A stretch of DNA of 24,047 nt from a virus. The stretch is taken from the IMG/VR virus record IMGVR_UViG_3300021961_000626, positions 1 through 24,047 of that record. One strand, given 5' to 3'. Positions 2,600 through 19,064 of the stretch are shown one piece after another (the first letter of the stretch is position 1; the number at the start of each line of letters is the position of its first letter). A program made the translations under genes and the position numbers. A model generated the notes under the pieces. It made no database searches. It saw only the letters and a list, made by a program, of their open reading frames with translations, and had not been told where the DNA came from.

Positions 2600-2613
2600 A
2601 TTGTGCGTTGATG
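2600..2613 (+). promoter_or_regulatory. repeated 14-base motif ATTGTGCGTTGATG, copy 1
   Basis: The motif begins at the base after the terminase stop and is identical to the copy at 17388-17401. Both copies lie in two of the few real intergenic gaps, upstream of a new structural gene block (portal block here, tail fibre there). This is where T7-like phages place late promoters, so a phage promoter or RNA-processing signal is the leading guess. No convincing host -35/-10 pair is seen at a common spacing in both copies. Confidence 0.55.
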
Positions 2614-2620
2614 CGGACGC

Positions 2621-2654
2621 CCTTCTATGCTCTAGCGCGGAAAAGTCTAGGAGG
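2621..2654 (+). promoter_or_regulatory. hairpin covering the ribosome-binding site of the MCFGGG gene
   Basis: CCTTCTA at 2621-2627 can pair with TAGGAGG at 2648-2654 over 7 bp with one T-G wobble. A mismatch then gives way to three further possible pairs. The 3' arm contains the ribosome-binding site of the gene starting at 2660. The same CTTCT/AGGAG core with the same wobble appears at 17411-17435 behind the second 14-base motif. This may slow translation until opened, or form a processed or protected 5' end. Stability was not calculated. Confidence 0.45.
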
Positions 2655-2659
2655 ATGCC

Positions 2660-2980
2660 ATGTGCTTTGGTGGTGGTAAGAAGAACCAAGAAACTCCTGC
2701 GGCTCCTGCTGCGCCAGCAACTCCCGTAGCGCCCGCCGCTCCTGCTGCGCCTGTTCTGACTGAAACTGAGCAGGAGCGCAAAGCTGCGGCAGAACGTCGC
2801 GTCGAGGCTGAAAATCAGCGCCGCGAGGAAGCTACTCGCCGTGCGGAAGCCAAGCGCAAGGACATTCAGGAAGCTTTGAGCGAGCGTGAGAAGCGCGCTA
2901 CCATGCGGGGTGGCTTTGGCCGCAGCCTTCTGATGACTGCACCACAAGGTGCGGCTGGCTATCAAACTAGGTTCTTCTGA
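2660..2980 (+). CDS. MCFGGG-type small virion protein (T7 gp6.7/7.3-like position), copy 2
   Basis: A 106-residue protein in three parts: MCFGGGKK N terminus; an Ala/Pro-rich linker (about residues 12-36); and a highly charged Glu/Arg/Lys/Ala helix, probably coiled coil (about 38-85), ending with GRSLLMTAPQGAAGYQTRFF. It sits immediately upstream of the portal, as gp6.7 and gp7.3 do in T7. gp6.7 also begins MCF, and gp7.3, as I recall, ends with a similar Ser/Gly-rich tail. A small virion or tail-associated protein is therefore the best guess. AGGAGG at 2649-2654 precedes the start and lies in a hairpin. The stop overlaps the portal start (TGATG). Its first 17 bases match the gene at 201. Confidence 0.65.
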   Translation: MCFGGGKKNQETPAAPAAPATPVAPAAPAAPVLTETEQERKAAAERRVEAENQRREEATRRAEAKRKDIQEALSEREKRATMRGGFGRSLLMTAPQGAAGYQTRFF

Positions 2981-4506
2981 TGGATCAAGACGCCAAGAAG
3001 TATATCGAGCGATACCAGAAGGCCAAGGCTTTCCGAGAGCAATGGGTTTCTCTGTTTGAGGAGTGCTATGAGTATGCACTTCCTCAACGTGAGTCGTTCT
3101 ATTACGAAGAAGCTGGTCAGCGTCGAGACGACAAGATTTTCGACGAGACTGCTGTTGTCGGCGTTCAAGAGTTTGCAAGCCGTCTTCAGAGCGGCCTTGT
3201 TCCCAACTTTGCGCGCTGGGCTGACCTGACCTCTGGCAGCGAGATTCCTCCCGAGGATCGGGATGCCATCGACAACGAGCTTGATGAAGTCACCGAGTAT
3301 GTCTTCGAGGTGCTTCAGAACTCCAACTTTAGCCAAGAGGTGCATGAGTCCTTCATGGACTTGGCCGTTGGCACTGGCGTTCTGTGCATCGAAGAGGGCG
3401 ATGCTATTAACCCGGTGATCTTCTCTGCGATTCCTTTGCCTCATGTGGTTTTGGACACTGGGCCGGATGATCGCATCGACCATGTGTTCCGTGAGCGAAA
3501 GAAGGTTAAGTTCGCCCACCTTCCGATCATGTATCCCAATGCGACCTTTGATCCTAGGATCGTGCAGCAACTCAGCACCGAGAATACTACCACTGTGCTT
3601 GAGGTTGTGTGCCGCGATTACGAGCGTCGGAACGAAGAGGCGTATTATCACTACGCCATCTGCATGACCACGAAGACCGTGCTTCATCGCAAGCAGATGG
3701 TTGGCCTCGGTTCCAACCCTTTTGTCTGCTTCCGCTGGTCGAAGTGCGCTGGCGAGGTCTATGGGCGTGGGCCTCTCATCAATGCACTCTCTGCGATCAA
3801 GACGACCAACCTCACGATTGAGTTGATCTTGGAGAACGCGCAGATGTCCATCTCGGGCATCTACCAGATGGAAGACGACGGGGTTATCAACCCTGACACG
3901 ATCCAACTGGTGCCGGGTTCAATCATACCCAAGGCTATGGGCAGCGCGGGTTTGCAGCCCATCCAAGCTGCTGGTCGCTTTGATGTCGCGCAACTTATCC
4001 TCAGCGATATGCGGATGAACATCAAGCGCGCGCTCTACAACGACATGCTTGGGAACCCGGACCGCACTCCTGCGACTGCGACAGAAGTTGCCGAGCGTAT
4101 GGCTGACCTGTCACGTCGCATTGGCGCTGCGTTTGGTCGCTTACAGGCAGAACTTGTGCAGCCTGTTCTTCAGCGCGTGATCTACATCCTGAAGAAGCAG
4201 GGTCGCATTGAGGTGCCGACGATCAATGGCCGTGAGGTCAAGATTCGCGCTTCATCGCCTCTTGCTCAGGCGCAGGCGAATCAAGACATCTCCAGCGTTG
4301 CCCGCTTCCTTGAGTTGGTTGGCGGCGTGTTCGGCCCGCAGATGCTTCAGATGCTCATCGACAGCGAACAAGTGGCTATCCATCTGGCGAAGAAGTTTGG
4401 TGTCCCAGAGAGCTTGATTCGTGATGAGCAACAGCGTAAGCAAATAGCTGCAATAGCGCAGCAGTTGGCTGAACAGCAGGGGTTGAACATTGCAGGGCCG
4501 AGTTAA
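2980..4506 (+). CDS. portal (head-tail connector) protein, T7 gp8-like
   Basis: Forms the ring at the capsid vertex through which DNA is packaged and ejected, and on which the tail is built. The 508-residue length and sequence fit the T7-type head-tail connector family: an N-terminal helical segment (YIERYQKAKAFREQWVSLFEECYEYALPQ), then DETAVVGVQEFASRLQSGLVPNFARWADL near residues 50-78, a central wing/stem region, and RTPATATEVAERMADLSRRIGAAFGRLQAELVQP typical of portal C-terminal helices. The start overlaps the previous stop as TGATG, with only a weak ribosome-binding site, so translation is probably coupled to the MCFGGG gene. It overlaps the following gene by 17 bases. Confidence 0.93.
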   Translation: MDQDAKKYIERYQKAKAFREQWVSLFEECYEYALPQRESFYYEEAGQRRDDKIFDETAVVGVQEFASRLQSGLVPNFARWADLTSGSEIPPEDRDAIDNELDEVTEYVFEVLQNSNFSQEVHESFMDLAVGTGVLCIEEGDAINPVIFSAIPLPHVVLDTGPDDRIDHVFRERKKVKFAHLPIMYPNATFDPRIVQQLSTENTTTVLEVVCRDYERRNEEAYYHYAICMTTKTVLHRKQMVGLGSNPFVCFRWSKCAGEVYGRGPLINALSAIKTTNLTIELILENAQMSISGIYQMEDDGVINPDTIQLVPGSIIPKAMGSAGLQPIQAAGRFDVAQLILSDMRMNIKRALYNDMLGNPDRTPATATEVAERMADLSRRIGAAFGRLQAELVQPVLQRVIYILKKQGRIEVPTINGREVKIRASSPLAQAQANQDISSVARFLELVGGVFGPQMLQMLIDSEQVAIHLAKKFGVPESLIRDEQQRKQIAAIAQQLAEQQGLNIAGPS

Positions 4507-4750: not shown

Positions 4751-5496
4751 ACGAATCGCTTCTTTCGACGGAGAGCGCAGAGCAGCCCGCTACTGCGGAT
4801 GTGAACTCGCAGATCACTGATGCGGTAACTCAGGCTGCGCCCGAGCCTGCTCAGGGCGATCTTCTGCTTGGCAAATACAAGACGACCGACGATCTTGCCA
4901 AAGCCTACAAGGAGCTTGAGTCCAAGCTTGGGGCGAAGGATGACGACATCCGCGCGCGCATCTTGGAGGAGTTGAACGAGGAAGCCTACAAGGATCGCCC
5001 TGCGTCTGCGGGCGAGTATCAGCTTCCTGAGTCCCTCGATCAAGCTGAAGCCGTAGACAACGAGCTTCTCAAGTGGTGGTCGGAACACTCCTTCGAGAAC
5101 GGCTACAGCCAAGAAGAGTTCGAAAAGGGCATCGAAATCTACGCCAAGTCCGTGATGGGCAACCAGCCTGACATGGAGGCTGAGTCAAAGCGCCTTGGGG
5201 AAAATGCAACGACGCGCATCCAAGCCGCCTCGATGTTTGCCAGCAAGTTCTTCCCCAAGGACGTAATGCCTGCCGTGGCTCGCATGTGTGAGACTTCGGA
5301 CGGGATCATGGCTCTTGAAGTCATCATGGAGGCCATGAAAGATGGTTCGTTCTCTGGCGCATCCGAGCCTGCTGGCCGGGTCACTGAGCAAAGCTTGAGG
5401 GAGATGATGCAGGATGAGCGTTATCACAACCCGGCAAAACGTGATCTACACTTCGTTCGGCAAGTCGAGCAAGGATTTAAAGCTCTCTATGGCTGA
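4747..5496 (+). CDS. capsid assembly scaffolding protein
   Basis: Guides capsid protein assembly into the procapsid and is then lost. The 249-residue protein is acidic and mainly helical, with a disordered N terminus rich in Glu, Ala, Thr and Gln. The characteristic segment LLLGKYKTTDDLAKAYKELE (about residues 39-58) is a typical sign of podovirus scaffolds, and GEYQLPE follows near residue 92. The C-terminal region around ERYHNPAKRDLHFVRQVEQGFKALYG would be the capsid-binding end by analogy. Its position between portal and capsid agrees. The start overlaps the Bbp19-like gene by ATGA, and the next gene begins within its last codons. Confidence 0.88.
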   Translation: MNESLLSTESAEQPATADVNSQITDAVTQAAPEPAQGDLLLGKYKTTDDLAKAYKELESKLGAKDDDIRARILEELNEEAYKDRPASAGEYQLPESLDQAEAVDNELLKWWSEHSFENGYSQEEFEKGIEIYAKSVMGNQPDMEAESKRLGENATTRIQAASMFASKFFPKDVMPAVARMCETSDGIMALEVIMEAMKDGSFSGASEPAGRVTEQSLREMMQDERYHNPAKRDLHFVRQVEQGFKALYG

Positions 5497-5995
5497 ACCC
5501 ATTGCCAGCGCGCACGGCTTGGAGCTTCATCGCCTTCTGCCTAAGCATGTGATGCCGTTCTATGAGAACCTGAGCGATGAGAACCGCCTAGAGTTTGAAC
5601 AATACTACAAGTTCGACCCGCTCGAAGCCATTCTTAGCATCCTTCGTGATCCGATGGTCTTTGCGATCACGAAGGGTGAAGAGGTTCTGTCGATCACTGG
5701 TCTGCACGATGGCGCTATGTGGCTTCTGTTCAACAAGAACCTGAGGAAGAATCGCGTCAGCTTCTTCCGCGCTTCGCCCGTGTTGGTGGACTACTACCAC
5801 CACTTCTACGAAGACATTCACTGTGATGTCTGGGTGAAGAATGAGATGATCTGCCAGTGGCTTGCCAAGCTCGGCTTCAAGGCCACCGGCGTCTACGACC
5901 GCGAGGGCACGGACGAGCAGTTCGTGCGTTTTGTGCGTTGCAAAAAACCTGAAACTAATATCTTCAGCATGATGACACGGCCCGTGATGCACTGA
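5489..5995 (+). CDS. T7 gp13-like internal virion protein (DUF2833, GNAT-like fold)
   Basis: A 168-residue protein that resembles the Gp13/DUF2833 family, which has an acetyltransferase-like fold; T7 gp13 is needed for assembling the internal core. Visible signs are the alternating segments FDPLEAILSILRD, VFAITKGEEVLSITGLHDGAMWLLF, FFRASPVLVDYYHHFYED and ICQWLAKLGFKATGVYDREG; the last is the usual GNAT-like ending (WLKKLGF). The frame is open back to an ATG at 5414, but MAEPIASAHG at 5489 is preferred because it gives an 8-base overlap with the scaffold rather than 83 bases. AAGGA at 5471-5475 is a rather distant ribosome-binding site. In T7 this gene lies after the tail tubes, so its place before the capsid differs. 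Confidence 0.75.
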   Translation: MAEPIASAHGLELHRLLPKHVMPFYENLSDENRLEFEQYYKFDPLEAILSILRDPMVFAITKGEEVLSITGLHDGAMWLLFNKNLRKNRVSFFRASPVLVDYYHHFYEDIHCDVWVKNEMICQWLAKLGFKATGVYDREGTDEQFVRFVRCKKPETNIFSMMTRPVMH

Positions 5996-6056
5996 GAGGC
6001 CCGCAAGGATACCCTCTAGGAAGTGACGCAGCGGATACCCGTAAGGTAGCAACTTC
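5995..6056 (+). ncRNA. candidate structured mRNA leader of the capsid gene with two GNRA hairpins
   Basis: This is the 79-base gap before the capsid gene. Hairpin 1: AGAGG (5995-5999) pairs with CCTCT (6013-6017), and inside it CC-GCAA-GG (6001-6008) forms a GNRA tetraloop. Hairpin 2: GAAGT (6020-6024) pairs with ACTTC (6052-6056), and inside it TA-C-CC-GTAA-GG-TA (6036-6048) forms a second GNRA tetraloop. The two loops share the string CCCGYAAGG. The capsid ribosome-binding site AAGGA at 6062-6066 is left free 8 bases before the ATG. A role in mRNA stability, processing or translation of the most abundant protein is inferred. No known RNA family is claimed. Confidence 0.5.
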
Positions 6057-13580: not shown

Positions 13581-16500
13581 ATGGAACCTTTCCGCCCTGC
13601 CCTGTTTGAGCGCAGCGTCGTTCCAGAGGCCCCCGGAATCGGAGAAGTTGTTGGCGCGCAGCTAGGCTATAGCTATGCGCCAGTCCTCGACTCGATCTAC
13701 AACGACCTTCGCTATGGTCCGCGCGATCCCAGCTATGATCCCAAGGCTGATGCCGGGGAATATTTGGGCATTGCTCCAGAGCTAGTTCTTCGAGCAAGGA
13801 ACGAAGCCCATATGGCTGCCATCAAGCGCAGCATAAATGGGATGAATGAAGATCGTCAGGTGATGTCGCAAGCTTCTATTTGGCAGCATTTGGGTGCTGG
13901 CATCTTTGACCCGATTAACCTCATGGCCCTTCCTTTTGGTGGGCCTACAATTGGCATTGGGCGTTCTGCGTTGCGTATAGGCGCTGGCGTTGGGGCAATT
14001 CAAGCTGGCCTTGAAGCTGCTTCTTTGCCCGTTGACCCTTATCGCACCTATCAGGAAAGCGCGCTGAACATTGCTACTGCTTCTCTGTTTGGCGCTGGCT
14101 TTGGCGCTGCGCTTGGCGCGCCATTGACTGCTCGCGCTCAGGCATGGACCAACACGCGGAACCAACTTCGCGCTCAGTTCGATCAGATCAGGCGCATCGA
14201 GGAGGTTGCCAATCTTAGCCGTGACGACATCGCTGGGATGCAGCCGCGCGATCAGCGTCCTTTCGGCGCTTTGAGCGACGAAGAAATCAGAGTGACTGTT
14301 GCGCGCATTGAGGCTGACGCAGAAAACCTACAACGCTCTGCTGATCCTGCTGCTGGCGGTATGGACATCAGGGATCGCGCTGACGAGATTCTGGCCGAGG
14401 CTACTCCCTATCGTCGTGAGCTAGGGTTCCGTGCGCTTGAGCTTGAGAACATCGACATCAAGGACCCCTACAACATTGCGCCGTCATGGTTCACCGACAG
14501 CATGTTGTTCAAGTTTGTGACCACGCCGTTTAAGCGTCAGCTTCAAGCCAAGATTCCTTCTTCTGTGAAAGAAAAATTTGTCAAACTTGCATCTGACGCA
14601 GGCATGGCGTTGAACCTTAATCTTCTTGGATTGGCAACGCCTCAATCTGTTTATCAACTTGCTGCCGTCTCTCAGGGACGCTGGGTCGCTTCGCATGACG
14701 AGCTTCTCAAGCTCTGGTCTGCGGATACCAATGCTCCACTTGCAACTGTGCTTGACCTGAACATTGGCGATTTGGCGCGTCAGGCTTCTCGCGCGCCTGA
14801 CACCTACGGCCAGTGGCTTAAGCAAGTGAACGAGAAGCGCATCCAGAATGACACGAACCTGACCGAGAACCAGATCAAGGCGGTCGAAGTCATCAATCGC
14901 TACTTCAAGGATGCAGAGCGCCGCCTTGAGGATGTCGGTCTTATTGGAACCAGCAAGGGGATGCAGAACCAGATTGCTCGCCTTGAACAAGAGATTGCTG
15001 CCCTTACGAATGAGCTTGCTGCGTTTCAGACTGTTCGCACGATTACTGTTGGCACTGGAACTGCTACTCAGACTGTGACCACTGGTCGCGGCATTAGAGA
15101 ACGTGAGATGATCAAGGGCCGTCTTGAGATGCTTCAGAAGCGCCTTGAGGAGCGTCAGGAAGAAGCATCTGCATTGCAAGATTTTGCTGTGAACCCTGAA
15201 CGTGAAGATGTGTTCTTCCCCCGCTTCTGGGACAACGCAGCGATCAACGCCAATCGCCAAGAGTTCGCTCAAGTCCTGTTCAACTGGTATCAGCAGAACC
15301 CGACGATCATGCGCTTTGACCCTGAGCAGGGTCGCTTTGTTCGCGTTGAGCTAGAAACCAGCGAGCGAGCTATCCGTGAGCGTGTAGATCAGACCATCGC
15401 CAACATCCTTGGCGAGAAAGACCCAACCAATGTGGACAACATTGGCTTTGGTTATGGCCGCTCCAAGCACTTCCGCCATCGTCAGGTAGACATCCCTAAC
15501 AAGCTGGTGATGAAGTTCATCATCACTGATCCGTTGGCTGCTATGAAGGCATATGCCACGCGCATCGAGCCGCGCTACGAGTATGCCCGCATGTTTGGCA
15601 AGGACGTTGATGGCGTTATCTTTGACATGCGTCGTGAGATGATTCGGGCTGGCAAAACAGAAGCAGAGATTGCCAAGACTATTGTTGACTACAACCACCT
15701 CTATGATCGTATCGCTGGCACTGTGGTCCGCAATCCGGGCGCTCTCAACCAGCGCGCTGCCTTTGCTCTCAAGGAAGCTGCCTCGTTCACTTACATGACT
15801 TCTGCTGGCTTCGCTGCTTTGCCTGACTTTGGCCGGATTGTGATGGAGTATGAACTAGAGAATGTGGTGAAAGGCGTTCAGACCATCCTTGATCGGCAGA
15901 AAGTGTCGATGACTGTAGATGAGGTAAGGCTTGCTGGCGAGGCGATTGATATTCTTCGCGGCACGGCTCACCTTCGTCTTGTCGAAGGCATGGCAAACGA
16001 CATCAACGCCAACGAGCTACTGACAAAAGCTCGCAACGCTTTCTACATCCTTAACGGTCTTGCTCCTATGACCACGCTCGCCAAGCAACTAGCTGGCATC
16101 GTGGACGCTCATACGATCATCGACTACTCGATCAAGCTGACACGCGGAGAGTTGGACGATCAGTCTCGCGTTTGGCTTGCTCGTCATGGCATTGACGAAG
16201 ACTTTGCTGGCAAGATCGCCCGTGCGCCTTGGCATGTAAATGACAAGGGACTCTACATGGCAAACACCGAGCAATGGGCTGACAGCATTTTCATTCCTGA
16301 GATTGATGGCAAGACCGTCAGGATCATCGAGTCAAGCGAGGATGGCTCTCCTGTTGGATACACTAACGAGAATGGCCGCTACGTTCCCGCCCGATACAAC
16401 CGGGAGACGAACACCATTTTCTTTGACCGCGAGTTCATCGAGGGCATTCAGTTCAACGAGAAGGCTTGGCTTGATCCAAAGGTGGAGGGCGTTGATGCGC

Positions 16501-17372
16501 TGCCCGACATCTTCAAAACCCCCAAGCAATGGTCCAACTTCGTGATGCTGCATGAGATTATGCACACGCGCTCTGCGAAGATGGATGGCGAGACACTGCC
16601 TGCCTACGAAAATCGCATCAACCAGATGGCTCTGACTGAGTATCGCAAGCAGCAGACGATCAACCAAGACACTGTTGAGAAGTTCCGTGTTGCTTTGAAC
16701 AGCGGCGTCATGAACGTGATTATGTCTGGCACCCCGGCAGACAAGCCGATCATCACCGATGGCGTGATCTACATTCCGGCGCGGATTGGGAAACCGTTTG
16801 GGTTCAAAGAAGACTCGCGCAATCCCGGCTATGTTCGGATTGAGAACGGCTTCCTTGGTCTGCCCTTCCAGTTCTACAGCTTTGCTTTTGCAAACGTGAA
16901 CAAGACTGTTGGCGCGTTGGCGCAGGGTCAGGTGAAGAACCGCGCCATTGGCGTGGCAACGATGCTTGGCTTGGCCTACATGTCTATGCAGCTCAGGACG
17001 CCAGATTACGTTTGGGACAAGATGAGTTGGCAGGACAAGTTCGCCAGAACCTACGACATGAGCGGCGTGACTGCGCTCTACTCTGATCTGTTCTACACGG
17101 CGATGCACACCTCGCTTGCTCTTGGCGGGCCGAACATCACTGGTGGCTTGCTGTCTCCCAAGTTCCCTCAGCAGCCCAGCATGGCAGATGCGATCAATGG
17201 TTTTGCTGGTGCTGGCCCGTCTTGGGCTACTGACATGGCTCTTGGCATCTACCAGTTCGCTGGGGGCGACTACGGCGAGGGCGCTAGGGAGGTTGTGCGG
17301 AACCTTCCATTTGCGCGGATGTGGTTCTGGAAGGACGAGATGAACCAACTGACGAAGGCGTGGGCGCAGTAA
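13581..17372 (+). CDS. internal virion (ejection) protein, T7 gp16-like, with HExxH metalloprotease motif
   Basis: A 1263-residue protein, similar in length to T7 gp16 (1318). The N terminus begins directly in a gp16-like helical region. It has hydrophobic, glycine-rich segments (about residues 105-180), coiled-coil stretches (about 461-485 and 508-535) and a C terminus ending RNLPFARMWFWKDEMNQLTKAW, recalling gp16 ends. The lytic transglycosylase domain that opens T7 gp16 is not visible. Instead, near the C terminus, WSNFVMLHEIMHTRSAKMDG holds an HExxH zinc-binding motif at 991-995 with catalytic Glu992; Glu1010 in AYENRINQMAL is a possible third ligand. The ejection role is inferred from position; the protease from the motif. 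TAGGAG at 13569-13574 is a good ribosome-binding site. Confidence 0.8.
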   Translation: MEPFRPALFERSVVPEAPGIGEVVGAQLGYSYAPVLDSIYNDLRYGPRDPSYDPKADAGEYLGIAPELVLRARNEAHMAAIKRSINGMNEDRQVMSQASIWQHLGAGIFDPINLMALPFGGPTIGIGRSALRIGAGVGAIQAGLEAASLPVDPYRTYQESALNIATASLFGAGFGAALGAPLTARAQAWTNTRNQLRAQFDQIRRIEEVANLSRDDIAGMQPRDQRPFGALSDEEIRVTVARIEADAENLQRSADPAAGGMDIRDRADEILAEATPYRRELGFRALELENIDIKDPYNIAPSWFTDSMLFKFVTTPFKRQLQAKIPSSVKEKFVKLASDAGMALNLNLLGLATPQSVYQLAAVSQGRWVASHDELLKLWSADTNAPLATVLDLNIGDLARQASRAPDTYGQWLKQVNEKRIQNDTNLTENQIKAVEVINRYFKDAERRLEDVGLIGTSKGMQNQIARLEQEIAALTNELAAFQTVRTITVGTGTATQTVTTGRGIREREMIKGRLEMLQKRLEERQEEASALQDFAVNPEREDVFFPRFWDNAAINANRQEFAQVLFNWYQQNPTIMRFDPEQGRFVRVELETSERAIRERVDQTIANILGEKDPTNVDNIGFGYGRSKHFRHRQVDIPNKLVMKFIITDPLAAMKAYATRIEPRYEYARMFGKDVDGVIFDMRREMIRAGKTEAEIAKTIVDYNHLYDRIAGTVVRNPGALNQRAAFALKEAASFTYMTSAGFAALPDFGRIVMEYELENVVKGVQTILDRQKVSMTVDEVRLAGEAIDILRGTAHLRLVEGMANDINANELLTKARNAFYILNGLAPMTTLAKQLAGIVDAHTIIDYSIKLTRGELDDQSRVWLARHGIDEDFAGKIARAPWHVNDKGLYMANTEQWADSIFIPEIDGKTVRIIESSEDGSPVGYTNENGRYVPARYNRETNTIFFDREFIEGIQFNEKAWLDPKVEGVDALPDIFKTPKQWSNFVMLHEIMHTRSAKMDGETLPAYENRINQMALTEYRKQQTINQDTVEKFRVALNSGVMNVIMSGTPADKPIITDGVIYIPARIGKPFGFKEDSRNPGYVRIENGFLGLPFQFYSFAFANVNKTVGALAQGQVKNRAIGVATMLGLAYMSMQLRTPDYVWDKMSWQDKFARTYDMSGVTALYSDLFYTAMHTSLALGGPNITGGLLSPKFPQQPSMADAINGFAGAGPSWATDMALGIYQFAGGDYGEGAREVVRNLPFARMWFWKDEMNQLTKAWAQ

Positions 17373-17387
17373 CTTTGTCCTAGATAC

Positions 17388-17401
17388 ATTGTGCGTTGAT
17401 G
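17388..17401 (+). promoter_or_regulatory. repeated 14-base motif ATTGTGCGTTGATG, copy 2
   Basis: Identical to 2600-2613 and placed in the gap before the tail-fibre gene, where T7 has promoter phi17. Downstream, both copies continue with a C-rich stretch and then CTTCT at nearly the same distance (9 bases here, 8 at the other copy). A late promoter or RNA-processing element is inferred. Confidence 0.55.
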
Positions 17402-17404
17402 TGA

Positions 17405-17441
17405 CCCCCTCTTCTGTGGATTAAGAGCCAAGGAGAGGGGG
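17405..17441 (+). promoter_or_regulatory. strong hairpin covering the tail-fibre ribosome-binding site
   Basis: CCCCCTCTTCT (17405-17415) pairs with AGGAGAGGGGG (17431-17441) over 11 bp with one T-G wobble. A bulged G leads to three more pairs, TGG (17417-17419) with CCA (17428-17430), closing an 8-base loop. AAGGAG at 17430-17435, the likely ribosome-binding site for the ATG at 17448, is buried in the stem. It could block translation, act as a processing site, or pause transcription; there is no T-tract after it. Confidence 0.55.
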
Positions 17442-17447
17442 GAACCC

Positions 17448-19064
17448 ATGACCATCGACATCTCGGACAACAACCCGCGCATTATCTATAGCGTTGCCCA
17501 AGGGGTGACGCAGACTTCGTTTGCTGTCCCGTTTGAGTTCTTCGCAGATTCAGACCTAAACGTGTATGTGGATAGCGTCCTCAAGACGATCACCACCCAC
17601 TACACTGTGAGCGGTGGGGACGGCAGCACTGGCACGGTGACGATGAGTGTCACTGGTGCGACTGGTGGCTCTATCGTTGCAATCACCCGCGATGTGACCA
17701 TCGAGCGAGTGACTGACTTCACTCCCGGCGTGGAGATTAACCGCGCCGCGCTGAACACGCAGCTTGATACGCTGACTGCCATCGCTGCCGACATCAAAGA
17801 TCAGGCTCTGCGCGCTATCCGTGTGCAGGACTTCGATCCGTCTACGACTGGCTTCGAGATTCCGCTTGCTGCTGCTCGTGCGAACAAGGTGTTTGCTTTC
17901 GATAGCGCAGGCGCGGTGAGCATCACCAACGAGATTGGCGTCTACAAGGGTAACTGGGCTGCTTCTACCGCCTACGTCGAGCGCGATCTGGTCAAGGACA
18001 CTTCGACCAACAACATCTTCCTCTGCTTGGTTGGGCACACCTCAAGCGGTTCTCAGCCTCTTACGACGAACACTGACAGCGCCAAGTGGGCGCTCATTGT
18101 CGATGCTGCGACCGCTACAACATCGGCCTCTGCGGCTGCTTCTAGCGCCTCTGCGGCGGCATCTAGTGCTTCTTCTGCGTCATCGTCCGCTAGTTCTGCT
18201 TCTGCCTCTGCAAGTTCTGCATCTACAGACGCAAGCTACGTTGCTGGCGTTGCAGACAACTATCTCGGAGCTAAGACAAGCGATCCAACCTTGGACAATC
18301 AGGGCGATCCCCTTGTTGCTGGGCAGCTTTACTTCAATACCGTTTCTGGCGACATGCGCGTTTATACGGGGTCTGTTTGGTCAATCGCGTATCTTCCTGC
18401 CACTGGCTATGTTACTCTTGCTGGAACAGAAACGCTTCTCAACAAGACGCTAGATGACCCTAAGATTTCCCTTGGTGGAACCAATGGAACATCTGGTCAG
18501 GCTTTGGTTTCTCAAGGCGTTGGCGTTGCTCCCACTTGGGGATCGGTTAGTTCTGTAATTACTAAGACCTATACAAACCGCGCTGATCTAAGATCAATTG
18601 ATGGTCCAGCGGCGCTTATTGCTGTCGTTGAAAGTCTTGGCGTATTTGCTTGGGAGGCAGGCAGCGCTCAAGTCGACGACGACGAAACTTGCTTTGCTAC
18701 AACTAGCGGTCGCTGGCTTCTCTACGCTGCCGCGTGGGACTTGGTATATGAATACATTGTTGGCGAGCTTGAGCTTTTTGATGAGCTTAGGTCCATCGTC
18801 GACACTGTTTACAATGCAAATACCAACATTGGCAATCTCACCAGCCTTCAAATAACTAAAAACATTGCTGGCGCAGAACTTAATGATGCTGTGATTGTTA
18901 CTCCTGTTTTGCCACTTAGCACTGGCAATGATGGTTCTGTAACATTTTCTGGGGCAGTAACATCTTCTGGGGTTGTTACTGTAAACATTGGAAACGCATC
19001 TGCTTCTTCAAGAACTATTACTGCTGGCAACCTCAAAATACTCGTCCTGAAAGGAGTCAAGTGA
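17448..19064 (+). CDS. tail fibre protein with T7 gp17-type N-terminal domain
   Basis: Receptor-binding fibre. The 538-residue protein begins with the T7-fibre N-terminal attachment domain (residues about 10-130: YSVAQGVTQTSFAVPFEFFADSDLNVYV, then RDVTIERVTDFTPGVEINRAALNTQLDTL and the helix IAADIKDQALRAIRV). Next is a possible carbohydrate-binding ChtBD3-like module (166-218, YKGNWAASTAYVERDLVKD). A Ser/Ala-repeat shaft linker follows (222-263), and then a region with TETLLNKTLDDPKISLGG common in fibre proteins. The C terminus, NIGNASASSRTITAGNLKILVLKG, is beta-rich. The 3' part becomes AT-richer, suggesting exchange of the distal half. Preceded by the motif-and-hairpin region; overlaps the next gene by 1 base. 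Confidence 0.9.
   Translation: MTIDISDNNPRIIYSVAQGVTQTSFAVPFEFFADSDLNVYVDSVLKTITTHYTVSGGDGSTGTVTMSVTGATGGSIVAITRDVTIERVTDFTPGVEINRAALNTQLDTLTAIAADIKDQALRAIRVQDFDPSTTGFEIPLAAARANKVFAFDSAGAVSITNEIGVYKGNWAASTAYVERDLVKDTSTNNIFLCLVGHTSSGSQPLTTNTDSAKWALIVDAATATTSASAAASSASAAASSASSASSSASSASASASSASTDASYVAGVADNYLGAKTSDPTLDNQGDPLVAGQLYFNTVSGDMRVYTGSVWSIAYLPATGYVTLAGTETLLNKTLDDPKISLGGTNGTSGQALVSQGVGVAPTWGSVSSVITKTYTNRADLRSIDGPAALIAVVESLGVFAWEAGSAQVDDDETCFATTSGRWLLYAAAWDLVYEYIVGELELFDELRSIVDTVYNANTNIGNLTSLQITKNIAGAELNDAVIVTPVLPLSTGNDGSVTFSGAVTSSGVVTVNIGNASASSRTITAGNLKILVLKGVK
18111..18236 (+). repeat. Ser/Ala low-complexity tract in tail fibre
   Basis: It encodes 42 residues almost entirely Ser and Ala (fibre residues 222-263). 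A unit of about 21 bases starting GCCTCTGCGGC occurs twice in near-identical form. Such tracts link the virion-bound and distal parts of phage fibres and are common points of length change and recombination. Confidence 0.8.

Follow-up and report, generated by a model that had tools for sequence, protein, structure and literature searches.

Why does the same 14-base sequence stand in two gaps of a viral genome fragment, once before the portal genes and once before the tail-fibre gene? The stretch of 24,047 bases analysed here (the window) is a linear virus record of IMG/VR and itself a fragment. Two exact copies of ATTGTGCGTTGATG, and no more, are found in it, one at 2600-2613 and the other at 17388-17401; both are intergenic, as had been noticed in an initial annotation, and both are on the plus strand. 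The first copy has the gene of the large terminase subunit (1076-2599) on its left and a small gene (2660-2980) on its right, and the second is flanked by the genes of an internal virion protein (13581-17372) and of the tail fibre (17448-19064). These gene calls agree with the assignment of the two sites to the fronts of the portal block (from 2660) and the tail-fibre block, which the same annotation had made. It had missed, however, that the core is present once more, as TTTGTGCGTTG at 5930-5940 in the scaffold gene.

The bare repeat is near chance: first-order Markov sequences average 1.7 repeated 14-mers, and the window has 14, mostly overlapping coding repeats. Because such a repeat is expected one or two times in 24 kb, the 14-mer is weak by itself. 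What makes it notable is the intergenic location of both copies, in a window of which intergenic sequence makes up 1.6%, together with the conservation of the sites in relatives. The boxes and the genes beside them are as follows.

2600..2610 (14-mer to 2613), plus strand: site A box ATTGTGCGTTG, of the pattern [TAC]TTGTGCRTTG present here in 56 of 58 non-redundant relatives, with its final TTG as a -35-like start
2628..2629, plus strand: TG of the TRTGCTTACGA block of site A, extended -10-like, within the TG offset of 27-31
2649..2654, plus strand: AGGAGG, the ribosome-binding site that serves the gene at 2660; its pairing with CTTCT at 2622-2626 is not conserved
2660..2980, plus strand: small gene (MCFGGG...) opening the portal block
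2980-4506: portal gene, head-tail adaptor phrog_332
5930..5940, plus strand: box of site B, TTTGTGCGTTG, in codons F-V-R-C within the 3' end of the scaffold-position gene (5414-5995)
17374..17383, plus strand: second box, of degenerate sequence (TTTGTCCTAG), 14 bases ahead of the one at site E
17388..17398 (14-mer to 17401), plus strand: site E box ATTGTGCGTTG
17448..19064, plus strand: tail-fibre gene, proposed to be controlled by site E (phrog_38058, phrog_1640)

Two small genes of the window, at 201-214 and 2660-2673, open with the identical 14 bases ATGTGCTTTGGTGG (MCFGGG...), and the MC(F/L)G start of such genes is conserved in relatives.

A search with the portal protein gave 80 related loci, in which the region tested at the portal junction was the 280 bases before the portal-preceding gene, picked by homology and not by the motif. 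The initial annotation had suggested close relatives as a place to look for the motif, and there [TAC]TTGTGCRTTG was found before the portal block in 56 of 58 non-redundant relatives, all near-misses at this junction differing in the first base alone. Among random windows of the same loci, true sites included, 6.5% carry this pattern. The strict core TTTGTGCRTTG was present in 3-4 copies in 21 of 22 records of 20-35 kb, nearly all of them on the late-gene strand (the exception is a single extra copy on the opposite strand in G009), and the reversed pattern used as a control gave one match in total across the 22 records. In near-complete relatives the late genes run rightward and the early genes leftward, the latter including a YqaJ recombinase, an SSB-like protein, a nuclease and small HTH proteins. 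Along the late strand the box has fixed places, in the order C/D (terS), A (portal), B (scaffold 3' end) and E (tail fibre). Site D is just before terS, with a full TTGACA in some relatives, and site C is just after terS in others; site B is in the last codons of the scaffold-position gene, ~140 bases ahead of the major capsid gene. The window has its boxes at 2600 (A), 5930 (B) and 17388 (E), and C/D would be beyond its left end. When IMG/VR was scanned openly by pattern, numerous unrelated matches in coding sequence came up as well (e.g. GATCAAATCCTTTGTGCATTGATC); these were excluded from the statistics of site types. No description of this box was found in a literature search.

Some further features were observed around these places. 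The pre-terS site (L094:12619, L026:3307, L063:31 and others) is followed by a purine-rich leader, GGGGGGAGAGAGGGAGAGGGGGG, and in L089 (~18040) the pre-terS box is lost with TTGACA retained. The distant contigs L260, L309, L135, L141 and L222, which probably represent sister genera, have several boxes each, and a AACAGCCTGTTTCTA-like sequence replaces the GGCCCGT leader. In the scaffold-capsid gap, at 5979-6003 (extending over ~5970-6020), a near-invariant leader ACGGCCCGTGATGCACTGAGAGGCCCG...GGATACCCT is present in almost all relatives; it had no Rfam match.

Site B lies in coding sequence, and its conservation can be read there at the nucleotide level. Among 44 distinct sequences the codons of the box are fixed (TTT in 44/44, GTG in 42/44, CGT in 44/44), while the neighbouring codons vary synonymously (TAT/TAC, AAG/AAA, GTT/GTG/GTC) and the base right after the box is free (TGC 38, TGT 6). 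Fixed codons amid synonymous variation mean that selection maintains the nucleotide sequence as such, be it that of the DNA or of the RNA. A chance repeat combined with ordinary conservation near gene starts could account for one repeated 14-mer in 24 kb, but the place-by-place conservation in relatives, the conservation of synonymous sites at B and the near-zero control with the reversed pattern speak against it; given these comparative data we consider this explanation refuted and give it practically no weight.

The box is followed by a second conserved element. TG is located 27-31 bases from the box start in 94% of the non-redundant A sites (n=50, against 23% by chance), 82% of B, 100% of C, 100% of D and 86% of E sites, compared with 14-29% in control windows of the same length, the five site contexts being unrelated; the window's own copy of site B has no TG at 27-31. 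The element is therefore of two parts, an 11-base box, ~16 variable bases and then TG. The box ends in TTG, which would be the start of a -35-like element, with a spacing of 17-18 bp to a TG-extended -10-like element. This TTG is fixed at all site types, with the full TTGACA at terS-side sites only. The hexamers at -10 show a poor average fit to TATAAT, and mainly for this reason we do not call the sites plain sigma-70 promoters. By analogy, a poor -10 is what may be expected of activator-dependent promoters, and we favour as the probable explanation a set of some four late promoters, each with the box as its activator site, which would be read by the host RNA polymerase and would need a phage activator, with a promoter-in-hairpin switch at the tail-fibre gene.

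Could the sites be read instead by an RNA polymerase or a sigma factor of the phage itself, T7-like or T4 gp55-like? The motif is phage-specific, repeated and on the late strand, the -10 is a poor TATAAT, and the box is changed at all sites of a variant clade (see below), all of which would suit such a reader. Moreover, one relative (L087:4050-4511, minus strand) encodes an early protein of 153 aa that matches the C-terminal HTH of DnaA (4e-10) and, weakly, sigma region 4 (E = 7e-4). This protein is, however, outside the clusters conserved across seven near-complete genomes. No match to the single-subunit RNA polymerase (PF00940) was obtained in eight near-complete relatives, although the same search recovered T7 gene 1 at 9.9e-110 as the positive control, and the largest leftward early gene is of ~300 aa. 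In addition, TATAAATA, the -10 of T4 gp55 late promoters, is missing from the consensus blocks of all five site types. A polymerase or sigma factor of the phage is, in our judgement, quite improbable. MEP301 and Skadi were also reported to be without RNA polymerase (PMC8024684, PMC10504331). Like T7 late promoters, the sites stand in several late-strand copies before structural blocks, and the initial annotation had put them in the place of T7 late promoters. Position, strand, copy number and conservation bear out its idea of a phage-specific late promoter, but the T7-style part of it fails because of the absence of a single-subunit RNA polymerase in the eight relatives and the gapped, two-part form of the element, which is not a compact block of ~20-23 bp with a consensus reaching the start site. 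A T7-like late promoter was rejected on these grounds.

With regard to the hairpins, CTTCT does follow both copies of the 14-mer after 8 or 9 bases and can pair at both with AGGAG of the next ribosome-binding site, as originally described. The structure at site E of the window consists of the following elements.

17405..17415, plus strand: left hairpin arm CCCCCTCTTCT, between the -35-like and -10-like elements, covarying
17415..17418, plus strand: TGTG at the extended -10-like position, at the loop edge
17431..17441, plus strand: right hairpin arm with the ribosome-binding site (AGGAG)

Covariation was assessed with chimeras, in which the left and right halves of a site were recombined between relatives, keeping composition and conserved blocks. 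At site E the mean stem score was 18.2 against 13.6 in chimeras (z = 6.9; 28 non-redundant sequences) and the MFE was -12.3 against -8.7 (z = -8.2), and no chimera set was as extreme. At site A, 50 sequences gave no covariation signal for the hairpin (stem z = 0.8, MFE z = -1.3), and at sites B, C and D the chimera test gives no support for one. Folding of the window against shuffles gave z = +0.2 for copy 1 and z = -3.7 for copy 2. The hairpin of copy 1 was thus discarded as a conserved structure, both the chimera test and the shuffles being negative, and the earlier idea of the same conserved hairpin at both sites holds for copy 2 but not for copy 1. In only about half of the sequences is there a direct overlap of the E stem with the ribosome-binding site. 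The excess of GU over AC is modest there (15 vs 6), which fits an RNA hairpin without proving it.

The position of the left arm is important for how this hairpin might work. The arm is upstream of the transcription start that we infer for site E, so the hairpin would form in RNA reading through from upstream and not in RNA from the site E promoter. The suggestion of a promoter giving mRNAs with a 5' hairpin is accordingly turned around at copy 2. A different explanation of the hairpin is that it forms, together with the box, a site of processing or binding within long transcripts of the late genes and not a promoter, for example a site for an RNase III-like or other ribonuclease, or an antitermination or stability element. 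The covariation at E is real, and every site is upstream of ribosome-binding sites on one transcribed strand, as such a signal would be. The hairpin is, however, found at E only, and the box and TG are common to the other sites (A, B, C and D) without any such structure; the spacing from box to TG is constant to within a few bases, the box ends in TTG (TTGACA at terS sites), and no Rfam family was matched in the window. We regard a signal acting at the RNA level as unlikely.

Further information on the proposed late promoters comes from a side clade of relatives with an altered box. L067/G016 has no canonical box and carries TTTTCCATTG at A, TTTGTACGTTG at B and TTTGTACATTG at E, and the near-complete G028 has TTTTACATTG, TTTCTACGTTG and TTTGTACATTG at the respective sites, its post-terS box being deleted. 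Scans for TTTGTAC found further records of this kind, and in 12 with TTTGTAC forms the canonical box is missing altogether. The second box, TTTGTCCTAG or a close form, which is upstream of most E sites, changes from TTTGTCCTAG in canonical genomes to TTTGTACTAG in 6/6 side-clade E sites, and the sixth base of this second box (17374-17383 in the window) shifts together with the main box. On the other hand, the side clade retains TTG and the TGTGCTTACGA block. A box that changes at several sites together, while the polymerase-contact elements stay the same, would be expected of a trans-acting reader of the box, and the pattern points to one that is separate from the polymerase contacts. The A sites of the side clade are not uniform, being TTTTCCATTG, TTTTACATTG or TTTATGTATTG (the last in L364), and therefore partial decay is possible and part of the box change may be of this nature. 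A clean one-letter switch from G5 to A at all side-clade sites, considered from G016 and G028, was rejected because of this variation, and our claim is limited to a box that is changed everywhere.

Which protein may bind the box? All seven near-complete canonical genomes (7/7), and G028 too, encode two small HTH proteins next to each other on the early strand (clusters 17 and 18, for example L051:2418-2666 and L051:2539-2823, minus strand), which are conserved among them. The first is of ~85 aa (HTH_3, 'IGCTVSLIHKWE'), and its model shows an XRE/C-protein fold with PDB matches including HipB, P22 c2 and C.BclI; Pfam Phage_CII matched it at E = 0.12 only. The second is of ~94 aa ('PTSTYYRTINGxTELRY') and gave a confident helical model (pLDDT 89), for which no significant PDB match was found. 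The G028 copies of both are diverged, recognition region included (SIVHKWE; PSSTYYRTVQGKTDMRY). This divergence alongside a changed box concerns one lineage and is suggestive only. We propose the two proteins as candidate late activators, one or both of which may bind the box.

Based on these results, the late switch may work as follows. The holoenzyme of the host RNA polymerase would contact TTG as a -35-like element and the TG-extended, poor -10, 17-18 bp apart. A phage protein made early would bind TTTGTGC at about -44 to -38, touching -35 from upstream in class II fashion, and would thereby activate simultaneously the blocks of terminase, portal, capsid and tail fibre. At site E the hairpin would span the promoter, with its left arm between -35 and -10 and the ribosome-binding site covered by its right arm. 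RNA reading through from promoters further upstream would fold this hairpin and be translated poorly, whereas RNA started ~7 bases after the -10 of site E would be without the left arm and be translated. The hairpin of the tail-fibre copy thus probably keeps the gene silent until the late switch-on. As far as sequence comparison can tell, this box and the host RNA polymerase appear to be the means by which many uncultured viruses of the ocean, forming a large group, turn on their late (structural) genes. Tentatively, though with a chance not far from even, the whole may amount to an undescribed late switch of abundant uncultured marine podoviruses that combines the host polymerase with a new phage activator (one or both of the two HTH proteins), a box and an activator co-changing from clade to clade, and a translational lock of the tail-fibre gene by its promoter-in-hairpin arrangement.

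The closest cultured relatives by portal and capsid protein are the RNA-polymerase-less pelagiphages Hodr, HTVC010P and Skadi, and also MEP301. In contrast to the group of the window, Hodr and MEP301 are without the box, and Hodr has a distant homologue of one HTH protein only. The record of Hodr (EXVC031P; OQ414635.1, L083) has locus tags reading EXVC032PBaldr, the name of another phage. For Skadi, the only promoters reported were sigma-70-like ones near replication genes (PMC10504331). For the question of late-gene timing in small marine podoviruses without RNA polymerase, a concrete box with known positions is now offered. Together with the two candidates for the activator and a clade that is a natural variant, it opens the question to direct tests.

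The activator-dependent phage promoters of the lambda CII type have TTGC-N6-TTGC flanking -35. The sites described here are similar in having a conserved box overlapping -35, a weak -10, a proposed use of the host RNA polymerase and a small HTH candidate. They differ in the box itself, TTTGTGCRTTG, which has a TTG repeat at 7 bp and does not follow the TTGC-N6-TTGC pattern, in serving ~4 late blocks, and in belonging to a phage that is not known to be temperate. The closest parallel to site E is in T4, where gene e, soc, 49 and I-TevI have a late promoter inside a hairpin sequestering the ribosome-binding site (PMC3014915). As in gene e and I-TevI, the putative late promoter of site E precedes a ribosome-binding site that would be masked by a hairpin in longer transcripts; RNA initiated at those T4 promoters is without the 5' arm, and the geometry of site E, with the left arm upstream of the -10-like element, fits this. 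The T4 late promoters are TATAAATA read by gp55, unlike the TTTGTGCRTTG box and TG found here, and the gene concerned here codes for the tail fibre of a small podovirus, the sequences of the stem covarying among relatives. The T4 arrangement of a promoter inside a hairpin masking the ribosome-binding site would in this way be extended to a tail-fibre gene and to an unrelated group of phages.
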